This document shows positions 43,244 to 49,341 of a stretch of DNA of 64,000 nt, one piece after another. Every line of letters starts with the position of its first letter. The first letter of the stretch is position 1. This stretch comes from Rhodopseudomonas pseudopalustris (GTDB lineage Bacteria > Pseudomonadota > Alphaproteobacteria > Rhizobiales > Xanthobacteraceae): positions 620,001-684,000 of the forward strand of contig NZ_FODT01000001.1 in the NCBI RefSeq assembly GCF_900110435.1. The letters run 5' to 3'. The position numbers and the translations under genes are program-made. The notes below the pieces were generated by a model. The model had not been told where the DNA came from. It was given only the letters and a program-made list of their open reading frames with translations, and did not search any database.

Positions 43244-44056
43244 ATGACCAGGCTCCCGCCCCGCGACTGGACCGAGATCCGCTGGCCGGAGATCGGCGAC
43301 GCCGACCCGGCGCGCTGGATCGCAGTGCTTCCGCTCGCCGCCACCGAACAGCACGGCCCTCATCTGCCGCTCGGCACCGACGTGATGATCGCGCGAGCCT
43401 ATCTGGCGCGGGTGCACGAGCTGTTACCGGCGGAGCTGCCGGTGAGTTTCCTGCCGCTGCAGCCGATCGGGCTGTCGACCGAGCATCTGGCGTTCCCCGG
43501 CACGCTGACGCTGGGAACCGAGACCGCGCTGCGGCTGTGGACCGAGATCGGCGACAGCGTCGCGCGCGCGGGCGTGCGCAAGCTGGTGATGGTGACCAGC
43601 CATGGCGGCAACAGCGCGGCCATGAGTCTGGTGGCGCAAGAGCTGCGAGCGCGGCACGCGATGCTGGCCGTCACCACCGGCTGGGCGCGATTCGGCCTGC
43701 CGGACGGTTTGTTCGCGGACGACGAACTGCGTCACGGCATCCATGGCGGCGCGGTCGAGACCTCGATCATGCTGGCGCACGCGCCGCAGCAGGTGCGCAC
43801 CGACAGGATCGCCGACTTCCGGCCCGCCACCGCGGCGATGGAGCATGAGTTCCGCTGGTTGTCGGCGCAGCGGCCGGCGCCATTCGCCTGGGCTGCACAG
43901 GACCTGCATCCGAGCGGCGCGATCGGCGACGCGACGGCGGCTTCGGCCGACAAGGGCCGGAAGGCGCTCGATCACGGCGCCCGCGCCTTCTGCGAGCTGC
44001 TGGCTGACGTCGATCGCTTCGACCTCGCGACACTCCGGCCCGCTCCCCGACCCTGA
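43244..44056 (+). CDS. Creatininase-family amidohydrolase
   Basis: This 270-residue metal-dependent hydrolase has the metal-binding motifs PLAATEQHGPHLPLGTD and TSHGGNSAAM, and HGGAVETSIM. Family members open cyclic amides (creatinine) or act in riboflavin/F420 and mycofactocin routes, so the substrate is not predictable. It is divergent from the ABC operon across 153 bp, which suggests that the transporter might bring in its substrate. Confidence 0.87.
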   Translation: MTRLPPRDWTEIRWPEIGDADPARWIAVLPLAATEQHGPHLPLGTDVMIARAYLARVHELLPAELPVSFLPLQPIGLSTEHLAFPGTLTLGTETALRLWTEIGDSVARAGVRKLVMVTSHGGNSAAMSLVAQELRARHAMLAVTTGWARFGLPDGLFADDELRHGIHGGAVETSIMLAHAPQQVRTDRIADFRPATAAMEHEFRWLSAQRPAPFAWAAQDLHPSGAIGDATAASADKGRKALDHGARAFCELLADVDRFDLATLRPAPRP

Positions 44057-44123
44057 TCCCCGAGCCTGATCCCGGTTGTTGCCAGCTCAGGACGACGGCG
44101 GCCTGAGGCTCAAAGACTGATCC

Positions 44124-45755
44124 TCACAGCGCCGCGGCAAAGGTTTCGGCGCGGGCCATTGCCCAGGCTTGCTTGAAACGTGGATCGTCGGTGCCGTCGA
44201 GCAGCTCGCCCGGACGCAGCGTCGGATAGAGTTGCGCGAACGACACCACGACGGACGACGACGTCCGCTGCGAGAAGTGGTGTGGGCCGATCTCCTGCGG
44301 ATGGTCGAGCCCCGCCGCCGCGACCAGTTCGGCCAGCGCGTGCAGCGTGGCATGGTGATAGTTGAACACCCGGTCGACCTTCTGCGTCACCACCAGCGCG
44401 CGATAGCGCGACGGCTCCTGCGTGGTCACGCCGGTCGGGCAGCGGTCGGTGTGGCAGCTCAGCGACTGGATGCAGCCGAGCGCGAACATGAAGCCGCGCG
44501 CCGAATTGCACCAGTCGGCGCCGAGCGCCATCGCGCGCGCCATGTCGAAAGCGGTGGCGACCTTGCCCGCGGCGCCGATCTTGATCCGGTCGCGCATGCC
44601 GATGCCGATCAGCGCATTGTGCACGAAGTTGACGCCCTCACGCATCGGCATCCCGAGATGATCCATGAACTCCAGCGGCGCCGCGCCGGTGCCGCCCTCG
44701 TTGCCGTCGACGACGATGAAGTCCGGGGTGATTCCGGTCGCCAGCATCGCCTTGCAGATCGCGAGAAACTCCCACGGATGGCCGATGCACAGCTTGAAGC
44801 CGGTCGGCTTGCCGCCCGACAGACGCCGCATCTCGGCGATGAAGCGCAGCATCTCGACCGGGGTCGAAAACGCCTTGTGAAAAGGCGGCGAGATGCAATC
44901 CTCGTCCATCGCCACCCCGCGGATCCGCGAAATCTCTTCGGACACCTTCGCGGCCGGCAGCACGCCGCCATGGCCGGGCTTGGCGCCCTGGCTGACCTTC
45001 AGCTCGACCATCTTGATCTGGTCGTCGGTGGCGAGGCGGGCGAAGGCGTCGGGATCGAACTGACCGTCACGGGTGCGGCAGCCGAAATAGCCGGAGCCGA
45101 TTTCCCAGATCAGGTCGCCGCCGTGCTCGCGGTGATAGGGGCTGACGCCGCCTTCGCCGGTGTCGTGCGCGAAGCCGCCCTTCTTGGCGCCGGCGTTCAG
45201 CGCCCGCACCGCATTCGGGCTGAGCGCGCCGAAACTCATCGCCGAGATGTTGAACATCGAGGCGGAATACGGCTTTGCGCAATCCGGCCCGCCGATGGTG
45301 ATGCGAAAACGCTCCTCGGCGTGCGGGCGTGGCGCGACCGAGTGGTGCATCCACTCGTAACCGTCGCCATAGACGTCCTCCTGGGTGCCGAACGGCCGCT
45401 TGTCGAGCACCATCTTGGCGCGCTGATAGATCAGGGCGCGGGTGTCGCGGCTGAACGGCTTGCCGTCCTTCTCGCTCTCGAAGAAATATTGCCGCATCTC
45501 GGGGCGGATTTCCTCGAGCAGAAACCGCAGATGCGCCGAGATCGGATAGTTGCGCAGCACCGCATGATTCTTCTGCAGCAGGTCCCGCACGCCGAGCAGC
45601 GTCAGCGCGCCGAACACCAATGCCAGGGTCAGCATCACGCCGAACAGGCTGGTGTGAAAATCGGTGATCGCGATCGAGGCGAACAGCGCGGTGAGCACGG
45701 CGCAGATCGTGAGGGCGATGAAGCGCGGTGAGAAAGGAAGCAGAATCGTTTCCAT
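44124..45755 (-). CDS. Membrane-anchored FMN-binding glutamate-synthase-like protein
   Basis: This 543-residue protein has two N-terminal transmembrane helices (about 8-30 and 36-55) followed by a GltS-type FMN barrel. Barrel landmarks are NISAMSFGALSPNAVRALN, KPGHGGVLPAAKV and VVDGNEGGTGAAPLEFMDH, and the 3Fe-4S cysteines lie in GCIQSLSCHTDRCP (C-x5-C-x4-C). It lacks the glutaminase and FAD domains of real GltB/GltD, so ammonia and electrons must come from elsewhere, or the reaction differs. It is divergent from the ligase pair at 45955. The longer frame upstream of 45755 is not family sequence. Confidence 0.9.
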   Translation of the reverse strand: METILLPFSPRFIALTICAVLTALFASIAITDFHTSLFGVMLTLALVFGALTLLGVRDLLQKNHAVLRNYPISAHLRFLLEEIRPEMRQYFFESEKDGKPFSRDTRALIYQRAKMVLDKRPFGTQEDVYGDGYEWMHHSVAPRPHAEERFRITIGGPDCAKPYSASMFNISAMSFGALSPNAVRALNAGAKKGGFAHDTGEGGVSPYHREHGGDLIWEIGSGYFGCRTRDGQFDPDAFARLATDDQIKMVELKVSQGAKPGHGGVLPAAKVSEEISRIRGVAMDEDCISPPFHKAFSTPVEMLRFIAEMRRLSGGKPTGFKLCIGHPWEFLAICKAMLATGITPDFIVVDGNEGGTGAAPLEFMDHLGMPMREGVNFVHNALIGIGMRDRIKIGAAGKVATAFDMARAMALGADWCNSARGFMFALGCIQSLSCHTDRCPTGVTTQEPSRYRALVVTQKVDRVFNYHHATLHALAELVAAAGLDHPQEIGPHHFSQRTSSSVVVSFAQLYPTLRPGELLDGTDDPRFKQAWAMARAETFAAAL

Positions 45756-45954
45756 GCAATCCCCGCGAGCCGGGCGGAGCCCCGGCCTGTTGTTGTGCGC
45801 CGGCCGCACCGCGAACGCGGCGCACCGGGCGCGTTCTATAACATGCCGATCGCGGCGCGATAACGGCGGCGGCTCGGCTGGATCACGCCTCGGTGATCCG
45901 CTAGGTTGCGGCCACGAGTCGCCGGAGGATCGCCGCGCGACGGGCCGGAGCCCC

Positions 45955-46941
45955 ATGCCGCAACTGCAGGATTTTCGAACCGGGAAGCCGGCGTTCTATC
46001 CCGATCAGGCGATCTACGCCGAATATGCCTGCGCGCGGCTCGGCCTCCGCTTCAGCGAACGCGACGGCGGCACCGGCCTGTTGTTCGCCGTCGCCTCGGG
46101 GACGAAGGAAATCTGCTTCGGCGGCGGGCGTTGCTCGTATTATCCGCAGAACAACGCCACCGCAGCATCGCTCGCGACCGACAAATATCTCGCCAATGCG
46201 CTGCTGGAACGCGCCGGCGTGGCGACGCTCGGCGGCCGCTATTTCTTCCTGCACGACCGCCACCGCGCGCTGCGACCGCCCGGGCACGAACGCAACGATG
46301 CGCTGGATTATCTCGCAGCGCAGGGCGGCCACGCCTTCGCCAAGCCGCTGACCGGCTCGCGCGGCGACTTTGCGCGGCCGATCGAGAGCGCCGCGGCGCT
46401 GGCCTCCTATCTCGACGACGTCGCGCGCTATTACGATTCCGTGCTGATCCAGCCCTATGCCTCAGGCCACGAGTATCGCGTGTTCGTGGTCGACGGCGAA
46501 GCGCTGTACACCGCGCGAAAGCTGCCGCCGGCGGTGATCGGCGACGGCGTCCGCAGCCTGCGTGAGCTGCTGCACGAACACGACCGCGCGTTGCGCGACC
46601 GCGGATTGTCGGGCGCGAGCGGCGACGATCCGTCGCTCGATCACGTGCCCGCGGCCGGCGAGCGGCGCGACATCGCGGGCCGGATGAATCTCAGCGTCGG
46701 CGGCGCGATGGTGATGGAGGAGGCCGGCGCGCCGGCGATCGCAGGCGCCCGAGCCGCGACGCGCGCGCTCGGCCTGCGGCTCGGCGCGGTCGATCTGTTC
46801 GTCGATCCGGACGCGCGCGACGACGTGCGGGTGATCGAGGTGAATTCCAATCCCGCGATCCGCTTTCTCGAAAGCTGCGGCCGCGACGATCTGATCGTCG
46901 CGATCTGGCGTCACAGTCTCACCGCAGCAGGATTGTTGTAG
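45955..46941 (+). CDS. ATP-grasp ligase, cyanophycin-synthetase-like
   Basis: This 328-residue ATP-grasp enzyme forms an amide or similar bond via an acyl-phosphate. The middle segment VLIQPYASGHEYRVFVVDGE with RKLPPAVIGDGVRSLRELL closely matches the ATP-grasp part of cyanophycin synthetases, and the Mg-binding end VIEVNSNPAIRFLESCG is present. The N-terminal and Mur-ligase parts of cyanophycin synthetase are not in this polypeptide. The next gene, which begins immediately after the stop codon, supplies a Mur ligase instead. The ATG at 45955 follows a GGAG site. The substrate is unknown. Confidence 0.85.
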   Translation: MPQLQDFRTGKPAFYPDQAIYAEYACARLGLRFSERDGGTGLLFAVASGTKEICFGGGRCSYYPQNNATAASLATDKYLANALLERAGVATLGGRYFFLHDRHRALRPPGHERNDALDYLAAQGGHAFAKPLTGSRGDFARPIESAAALASYLDDVARYYDSVLIQPYASGHEYRVFVVDGEALYTARKLPPAVIGDGVRSLRELLHEHDRALRDRGLSGASGDDPSLDHVPAAGERRDIAGRMNLSVGGAMVMEEAGAPAIAGARAATRALGLRLGAVDLFVDPDARDDVRVIEVNSNPAIRFLESCGRDDLIVAIWRHSLTAAGLL

Positions 46942-48258
46942 ATGTTCGATCTTCCGAAATACGGCGAAGGGATTTGTCTCGCGCGGCTGGCCGTGCTGCT
47001 CGATCGGCTCGGCGTCGATCGCGCGCGGCTGCAGCGCATCGCCGTCGCGGTCTGCGGCTCCAACGGCAAGGGCTCGACCGCGGCGTTCACCGCCAGCATC
47101 GGTCGCGCTCACGGCCTGCGCACCGGGCTGTTCACCTCGCCGCATTTGTATCGCTTCAACGAACGCTTCCAGATCGACGGCGCGCCGATCCCCGACGATG
47201 CGCTGAGGCGGCTGCTGGAGCGCGTGACAAAGGCCATCGCGGAGGTGGGAGAAGCCCGCGGCGAGCAGTTCGGCGCATTCGAGGCGCAGTTCGCGCTGGC
47301 GTGTTTGTACTTCCAGGACAATGCCTGCGACTTCGCGGTGTTCGAGGCCGGGATCGGCGGCCGCTACGATCCGGTGCGCCTGCTCGGCGCGCGCGTGAGC
47401 TGCGTCACCTCGGTCGATCTCGAACACGTGGCGCTGCTCGGCCATTCGATCGAGCTGATCGCCTCCGACAAGAGCGACGCCTGCGCGGCCGGCGGCGTCA
47501 TTGTCTATGGCGAGAATTGCCGGCCATTGCACGACCATCTCGCTGAATACAATCGCAACCGCGACGTCGCCGCGCTGTTCATCGGCGACGAGATCGGCAT
47601 CGGCAGCGTCAGCATCGCGGATGCGCGGCAGCGCTTCGATCTGCGCATCGCAGATCACACTTACGTGGCGCTCGAAACCTCGCTGCTCGGCCCGTTCCAG
47701 GTCAACAACGCCGCGATCGCGGCGTCGCTGTTCGCGCTATGGCTGCGGCACAGCGGCACCGACCACGATCCGGCGCGGCTCGATGCTGCGATCCGGAGCG
47801 GCCTGCGCGATGCGCGATGGCCGGGACGGCTGGAGACGATCAGCACAGAGCCGCTGACGGTGATCGACGTCGGCCACACTCCTGATGGCATCCGGCAGGC
47901 GCTGGCGGGACTTCGCGCGGCGCATGGCGAGAGCGGATGGATTCTGGTGCTCGGCGCATCGCGCGACAAGAACGCCGCCGAGATCGTCGCGGCGCTGGCG
48001 CCGTCCTTCGACGCCATCGTCTGCAGCTCGGCGCATCACAAGGGCGCGCCCGCCGAAGTCATCGCGGAAGCCGCGCGCGCGGCGAATCCGCGCGCCGAGA
48101 TCGTCACGGCTGCGACCGTAGCCGACGCCGTGCGCGAGGCGCGCGTGCTGGCCGAACGGCTCGACGCCCGGATCTACGTCGCAGGCGGATTGTTTCTCGC
48201 GATCGAATTCGCCGCCGTGACGCGAGGCGGACGCGCCGAGGATCTTCGGTTCTTCTGA
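46942..48258 (+). CDS. FolC-like Mur ligase (folylpolyglutamate-synthase family paralogue)
   Basis: This 438-residue ATP-dependent ligase has P-loop VCGSNGKGSTAAF, TSPHLYRFNERFQIDG, FEAGIGGRYDPVRL and WPGRLETIS. The usual DGAHNPDG of FolC is here VIDVGHTPDGIRQAL, a changed active-site loop. The carbamylated-Lys equivalent lies in IASDKSDACAAG. Its start touches the stop of the ATP-grasp gene, so the two are surely co-expressed. A housekeeping folC normally sits elsewhere in such genomes, so this copy probably adds an amino acid, perhaps glutamate, to a different acceptor. Confidence 0.85.
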   Translation: MFDLPKYGEGICLARLAVLLDRLGVDRARLQRIAVAVCGSNGKGSTAAFTASIGRAHGLRTGLFTSPHLYRFNERFQIDGAPIPDDALRRLLERVTKAIAEVGEARGEQFGAFEAQFALACLYFQDNACDFAVFEAGIGGRYDPVRLLGARVSCVTSVDLEHVALLGHSIELIASDKSDACAAGGVIVYGENCRPLHDHLAEYNRNRDVAALFIGDEIGIGSVSIADARQRFDLRIADHTYVALETSLLGPFQVNNAAIAASLFALWLRHSGTDHDPARLDAAIRSGLRDARWPGRLETISTEPLTVIDVGHTPDGIRQALAGLRAAHGESGWILVLGASRDKNAAEIVAALAPSFDAIVCSSAHHKGAPAEVIAEAARAANPRAEIVTAATVADAVREARVLAERLDARIYVAGGLFLAIEFAAVTRGGRAEDLRFF

Positions 48259-48342
48259 GCGCGGTGATTTGAACGTTGCGCGCAGCCGAGACGCCGACTA
48301 GCGTCCGCGCCAAACGCGACAACATCGTTCAGGGAGAGAAAC

Positions 48343-49341
<999 letters not shown>

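Follow-up and report, generated by a model that had tools for sequence, protein, structure and literature searches.

The window analysed here is a stretch of 64,000 nucleotides of Rhodopseudomonas pseudopalustris (NZ_FODT01000001.1, positions 620,001 to 684,000), part of a genome of 5.27 Mb. Two adjoining genes on its plus strand encode an ATP-grasp ligase (45955..46941, 328 amino acids) and a FolC-like Mur ligase (46942..48258, 438 amino acids). We found that the two genes are a conserved pair, that the FolC-like proteins form a clade with altered substrate-site residues (G111, R146, V310, and G416), and that a different ATP-grasp gene takes the place of the pair at the same slot in related genomes. 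Judged from these sequences, the pair is rather probably a two-step amide-ligase operon that acts on a small molecule other than folate.

Layout and distribution of the gene pair

The stop codon TAG of the ATP-grasp gene ends at 46941 and the ATG of the FolC-like gene is at 46942, leaving a spacer of 0, just as the first-pass annotation had placed the junction. The mechanical start of the ATP-grasp open reading frame is 45664, but ATG 45955 is likely the true start, because its methionine is invariant across an 11-row alignment of orthologues in which the starts were set by the analyst. In the 19 loci viewed, the start of the second gene either overlaps the upstream stop or lies about 10 nucleotides or less from it, and thus the two genes are probably translated together. 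Upstream, the first-pass annotation had put a divergent gene for a glutamate-synthase-like (GltS-like) protein 199 bp away, and this agrees with its minus-strand start at 45755 and the ATP-grasp start at 45955. From these coordinates, the 199 bp between the two divergent genes (45756..45954) are a putative promoter region.

The two ligase genes occur together as a conserved unit. Among 101 relatives, the strong ATP-grasp matches (E < 1e-100) and the strong FolC-like matches fall in the same 10 genomes. The ATP-grasp gene (E < 1e-100) was found in 38 of 296 genomes of the family, and in all 38 the FolC-like gene adjoins it. Rhodopseudomonas infernalis and two Rhodopseudomonas sp. are among the named loci that also carry the pair. 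Four of 385 genomes of the class contain the FolC-like type at E < 1e-180 (the window genome, G375, G458, and G562), each with the ATP-grasp gene adjoining, and three of them lie outside the family. G458 and G562 belong to one genus, and G562 is a short contig of an assembly with 10% contamination. The FolC-like type without its paired ATP-grasp was found in none of the 101 relatives and 385 class genomes; a further seven of the class genomes contain a related ATP-grasp but no FolC-like gene of this type, and three of these seven (G339, G402, and G441) belong to the paired ATP-grasp clade. In 398 genomes of the phylum there were five strong ATP-grasp matches (E < 1e-60), all from the family of the window and one of them of the replacement type described below, but this sample is without the paired genomes outside the family and so absence elsewhere is not firm. 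The weaker matches in the phylum (E 1e-43 and up) were mainly long open reading frames of the size of the cyanophycin synthetase CphA or of acetylglutaminylglutamine synthetase, with partial matches in genus g25. On plasmids, the FolC matches were below 60% identity in 31 of 31 records, and a search for the ATP-grasp gene at E 1e-12 gave no match.

Outside the family the pair has different neighbours. Region L118 has an ABC transporter and a chemotaxis receptor beside it. In region L119 (5882-14020) a trpF-trpB-trpA-accD-folC run ends with the housekeeping folC and the pair comes next, which is an unusual place for a second folC. The family block and these two regions have only the two ligase genes in common, and therefore the pair is a two-gene module.

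The FolC-like ligase

The FolC-like protein passes the FolC subfamily model TIGR01499 with 254.1 bits (cut-off 162.65), and the copies of L118 and L119 also exceed this cut-off. It stays under the cut-offs of the FolC equivalog models NF008101 (131.4 of 360 bits) and NF047860 (175.9 of 700 bits), a test that discriminates poorly, since the housekeeping FolC of L119 is under both as well (190.5 and 181.8 bits). The closest structures to its predicted structure (predicted local distance difference test score, pLDDT, 72.2) are those of FolC and folylpolyglutamate synthases (FPGS). The genome of the window has another folC at C16:591032-592252, 76 kb away, whose product is 30% identical to the FolC-like copy. 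This gene lies between accD and trxA; it is the housekeeping copy, and the FolC-like gene is a second FolC. The FolC-like gene is thus not the only folC of its genome, which the first-pass annotation had named as a possibility.

In the phylogeny, a single clade (100/100) contains the FolC-like copies and excludes 13 alphaproteobacterial housekeeping FolC, so the FolC-like copy is not the housekeeping enzyme. That tree contained 13 of the 19 FolC-like rows, 13 of the 28 alphaproteobacterial FolC rows, and five outside FolC. In a larger tree with all 28 alphaproteobacterial FolC rows, the monophyly of the FolC-like copies was less well supported (78/70).

We compared the residues of 19 FolC-like copies with those of 31 other FolC, omitting L166 (partial and of odd composition) and L058 (over-extended). 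The ligase core is kept in all 19 copies, including the P-loop, E135, K177, R296, D309, and H312. In Lactobacillus casei FolC the numbers are presumably K185, R300, D313, H316, and S412, and these agree with the alignment. The ratio of nonsynonymous to synonymous substitution rates (dN/dS) was 0.25-0.34 in six comparisons, indicating purifying selection. Because the catalytic residues are kept and dN/dS is low, both enzymes of the pair appear to be active.

Other positions differ from FolC. G111 is present in 19/19 FolC-like copies and Thr is found there in 30/31 other FolC. R146, also in 19/19, takes the place of the Asn in the DATN motif (Asn in 30/31). G416 is likewise invariant (19/19) at a position that is Ser in all 31 other FolC, and V310 stands where 29/31 have Gly. 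The altered loop DVGHTPDG, noticed in the first-pass annotation, is present in the protein. In the alignment, G111 corresponds to S150 of tuberculosis FolC. According to the excerpted text of PMC9637297, the hydroxyl of S150 was modelled to form a hydrogen bond with dihydropteroate, other bacteria have Thr there, and a change of this Ser to Gly was discussed as losing the bond. G416 aligns with the Ser of a Ser-Val-Val stretch of tuberculosis FolC (number 473 in the paper, 471 by chain index), which was modelled as holding the glutamate side chain (PMC10861534, excerpt). The FolC-like enzyme would thus have kept the machinery for ATP and ligation and changed the acceptor site and the amino-acid site. 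Because both sites are changed, dihydropteroate and folate are probably no longer its substrates, and it may not use glutamate. The earlier suggestion that glutamate is the added residue is therefore weakened, as the Ser modelled to hold it is Gly in 19/19 copies.

Taken together, the protein resembles FolC (TIGR01499) in its fold, in clade level, and in its catalytic residues. Unlike FolC, it has changed residues at the folate and glutamate sites in all 19 copies, is a second copy besides the normal folC, has a fixed ATP-grasp partner, and falls under both equivalog cut-offs.

The ATP-grasp ligase and the proposed reaction

No Pfam family matched the ATP-grasp protein over its cut-off. The best NCBIfam match is cyanophycin synthetase (TIGR02068), at 65.2 bits against a cut-off of 850. 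An AlphaFold model built from a five-sequence alignment has a mean pLDDT of 66.5, and the best matches of a fold search with this low-confidence model were GshAB and cyanophycin synthetases. In the tree, the paired ATP-grasp clade is separate from CphA and from N-acetylglutaminylglutamine synthetase. S135-R136 is invariant in 19/19 paired copies and is not the usual residue pair in the replacement, CphA, or acetylglutaminylglutamine clades. N-acetylglutaminylglutamine synthetase (TIGR03103) and GshAB have related ATP-grasp domains that make dipeptide bonds, but they are fused to other domains and have no FolC partner, and TIGR03103 is a separate clade in the tree. For the poly-gamma-glutamate ligase CapB/PgsB, the general Pfam and NCBIfam scans gave no CapB-named family, and no direct comparison was made. 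Genome G582 has two tandem ATP-grasp genes from two different clades (L124, 7185-9379). In L122 (7028-8877), an unpaired relative of the ATP-grasp gene lies directly behind thyA.

The pair is rather probably a translationally coupled operon of two ATP-dependent carboxylate-amine ligases. Each ligase would convert a carboxylate to an acyl phosphate, which would then be joined to an amine. The first amide bond would most likely be the work of the ATP-grasp enzyme, with an amino acid or a small peptide-like compound as acceptor, and its product would receive a second residue from the FolC-like enzyme. The data are consistent with the earlier proposal of two ligases working successively on one scaffold. 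The neighbourhoods share no dedicated transporter, regulator, or depolymerase, and therefore a small product of two ligations would be the simplest reading. A comparable sequence of steps is described in the excerpted text of PMC8141765, in which methylofuran is made with two ATP-grasp side-chain ligases, MyfA and MyfB, acting in turn. MyfA/MyfB and the pair would be alike in having two successive amide ligases on one small molecule, but MyfA and MyfB are both ATP-grasp enzymes and that excerpt mentions no FolC-type partner. In the open-licence literature we found no described system of an ATP-grasp ligase with a FolC-type partner.

Several points weigh against a two-step pathway on a non-folate substrate. 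The residue differences are alignment readings, and the contacts assigned to them come from models in other species. The neighbouring arginine contact described in the excerpt of PMC10861534 is already absent in the housekeeping FolC of the window genome, so the loss of a single contact does not necessarily imply loss of the substrate. Both structure models (pLDDT 66.5 and 72.2) are of low to medium confidence. Three members of the paired ATP-grasp clade (G339, G402, and G441) are unpaired, and thus the FolC-like partner is not essential to this kind of ATP-grasp. The position of the pair behind folC in L119, together with that of the unpaired relative behind thyA in L122, is a possible hint of folate.

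These two positions, and membership of the FolC clade by the subfamily model, would also fit a role in tailoring folates or another pterin, in which the pair adds unusual residues such as alpha-linked glutamate. We consider such a role unlikely, since G111 and G416 lose the dihydropteroate- and glutamate-contacting hydroxyls in 19/19 copies and Asn is replaced by Arg at 146. In addition, a housekeeping folC is also present, and the pair was not seen beside folate genes in the family.

The pair might instead be a two-protein relative of cyanophycin synthetase, whose ATP-grasp enzyme builds an amino-acid backbone that the Mur ligase decorates, yielding a storage polymer. The ATP-grasp protein resembles that of CphA by sequence and fold search, and the gene order of the pair is the domain order of CphA. 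However, the two proteins here are encoded by separate genes split by a stop codon, and the Mur part is of the FolC type and not of the MurE/CphA type. It groups with the FolC side of the tree (100/100), with the CphA Mur modules as a distant outgroup, and the excerpt of PMC11915815 places the Mur part of CphA near MurE/MurF. Cyanophycinase (TIGR02069) was found in 0/23 genomes searched, 13 of which have the pair, and control genomes show that the search detects the family. As the paired ATP-grasp clade is also separate from CphA, we regard a polymer of this kind as improbable; a different polymer with another hydrolase would be compatible with the family tree. The split cyanophycin synthetase itself, as proposed in the first-pass annotation, was rejected on the Mur phylogeny, the missing cyanophycinase, and TIGR02068 scores of 65.2 and 30.5 bits against 850.

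The exchange slot and its neighbouring genes

The pair fills a 2.6-kb slot where related genomes hold a different, single ATP-grasp gene. In 9/16 Rhodopseudomonas genomes the pair is absent and an ATP-grasp gene of about 30% identity is present instead, beside the GltS-like gene in seven of the nine. No GltS-like gene was found in the other two, G009 and G014; the replacement gene of G014 still belongs to the same block and adjoins the creatininase-like gene. Genus g25, which is probably Bradyrhizobium from its likeness to the named locus L040, has the replacement gene at the same place in eight regions and the pair in other genomes. When the window was compared by blastn with three replacement genomes (L080, L081, and L086), both flanks aligned at 82-88% identity, and the alignment broke at 45766-45775 and restarted at 48342, which marks 45776..48341 as the exchangeable cassette with the pair. 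The replacement ATP-grasp proteins form a well-supported clade of their own (100/100) and thus are more than the remainder of a pair whose second gene was lost.

The two cassettes exclude each other in the genomes searched. A profile of the replacement gene was positive in 0/41 pair genomes, its sole match there being the paired ATP-grasp itself (E 1e-12 to 1e-30), and it detected both positive controls (G003, 2.5e-158; G039, 6.0e-91). The profile was used because a search with a single sequence misses the replacement gene of G039. Trees of the flanking GltS-like and dehydrogenase genes indicate at least four changes of state, of which well-supported branches force two; several branches are weak and the GltS outgroup is not split off by a single branch. 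Losses in the descendants of an ancestor that had both genes would give the same tree pattern as exchange.

The exchange at one slot suggests that the pair and the replacement cassette do related, interchangeable jobs. We tentatively propose that the pair could represent an undescribed two-ligase pathway. Its FolC-type enzyme would have been redirected to what the ATP-grasp partner makes, a compound other than folate, and the pair would persist as one of two mutually exclusive cassettes at a fixed chromosomal slot. Related bacteria would thereby produce the same kind of metabolite in chemically different versions. If so, Rhodopseudomonas and related Alphaproteobacteria would have a small-molecule pathway that goes unseen when automatic annotation labels the gene a second folC. 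The residue changes that accompany the recruitment of a folate ligase to a new substrate could then be read from the FolC-like clade, and the exchange of cassettes would offer matched natural strains for comparative metabolomics.

The GltS-like gene (44124..45755, minus strand, 543 amino acids) flanks the slot and was judged to be outside the unit. Its product matches PF01645, the flavin mononucleotide (FMN) domain of glutamate synthase, at 281.8 bits, and has a C-x5-C-x4-C motif at residue 428 and two hydrophobic stretches at the N-terminus, in keeping with the membrane anchor and FMN/3Fe-4S sites read in the first-pass annotation. An amidotransferase domain is not among its Pfam matches. Since this gene is in the neighbourhood of the pair in 10/10 pair genomes among the relatives, the product of the pair might be a glutamylated cofactor or compound for which the GltS-like protein supplies or consumes glutamate (or another amine), as had been proposed. 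However, the GltS-like gene occurs in 39 of the 101 relatives and the pair is missing from 29 of these, the gene also flanks the replacement ATP-grasp (carried by eight of the 29), and it is absent from the 16-kb regions L118 and L119. The gene also occurs in G031, G040, G057, and G059 without an adjoining ATP-grasp call of either kind. With the Ser that was modelled to hold glutamate changed to Gly as well, glutamylation by this route is very unlikely; on this distribution the GltS-like protein was rejected as the partner of the pair, and the adjacency is local synteny. That the two ligase genes are themselves chance neighbours held by synteny, or that the second is a decaying folC duplicate, is hardly credible, for although the slot sits in a syntenic block, the pair is together in three unrelated neighbourhoods (the family block, L118, and L119), is under purifying selection, and has invariant catalytic residues.

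A defence function was also considered and rejected, as four proteins had no PADLOC match at E 0.01. Downstream of the slot is a gene for a zinc-free medium-chain dehydrogenase/reductase-like protein (48343..49341, plus strand; NF058644, 376.8 bits, not reaching the cut-off of 440), and this flank is the same in pair genomes and replacement genomes. Other genera of the family carry a ferredoxin-NADP-reductase-like gene (L196, 7351-8238) that separates the GltS-like gene from the slot, and its product may be a redox partner of the GltS-like protein. On the far side of the GltS-like gene is a creatininase-family gene (43244-44056), which scores 121 bits with the model of the mycofactocin protein MftE, under its cut-off of 172. 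Only 67 bp (44057-44123) separate the creatininase-like and GltS-like genes in the window, and most relatives have an additional gene there, about 2 kb long, that encodes a beta-barrel-like outer-membrane protein.

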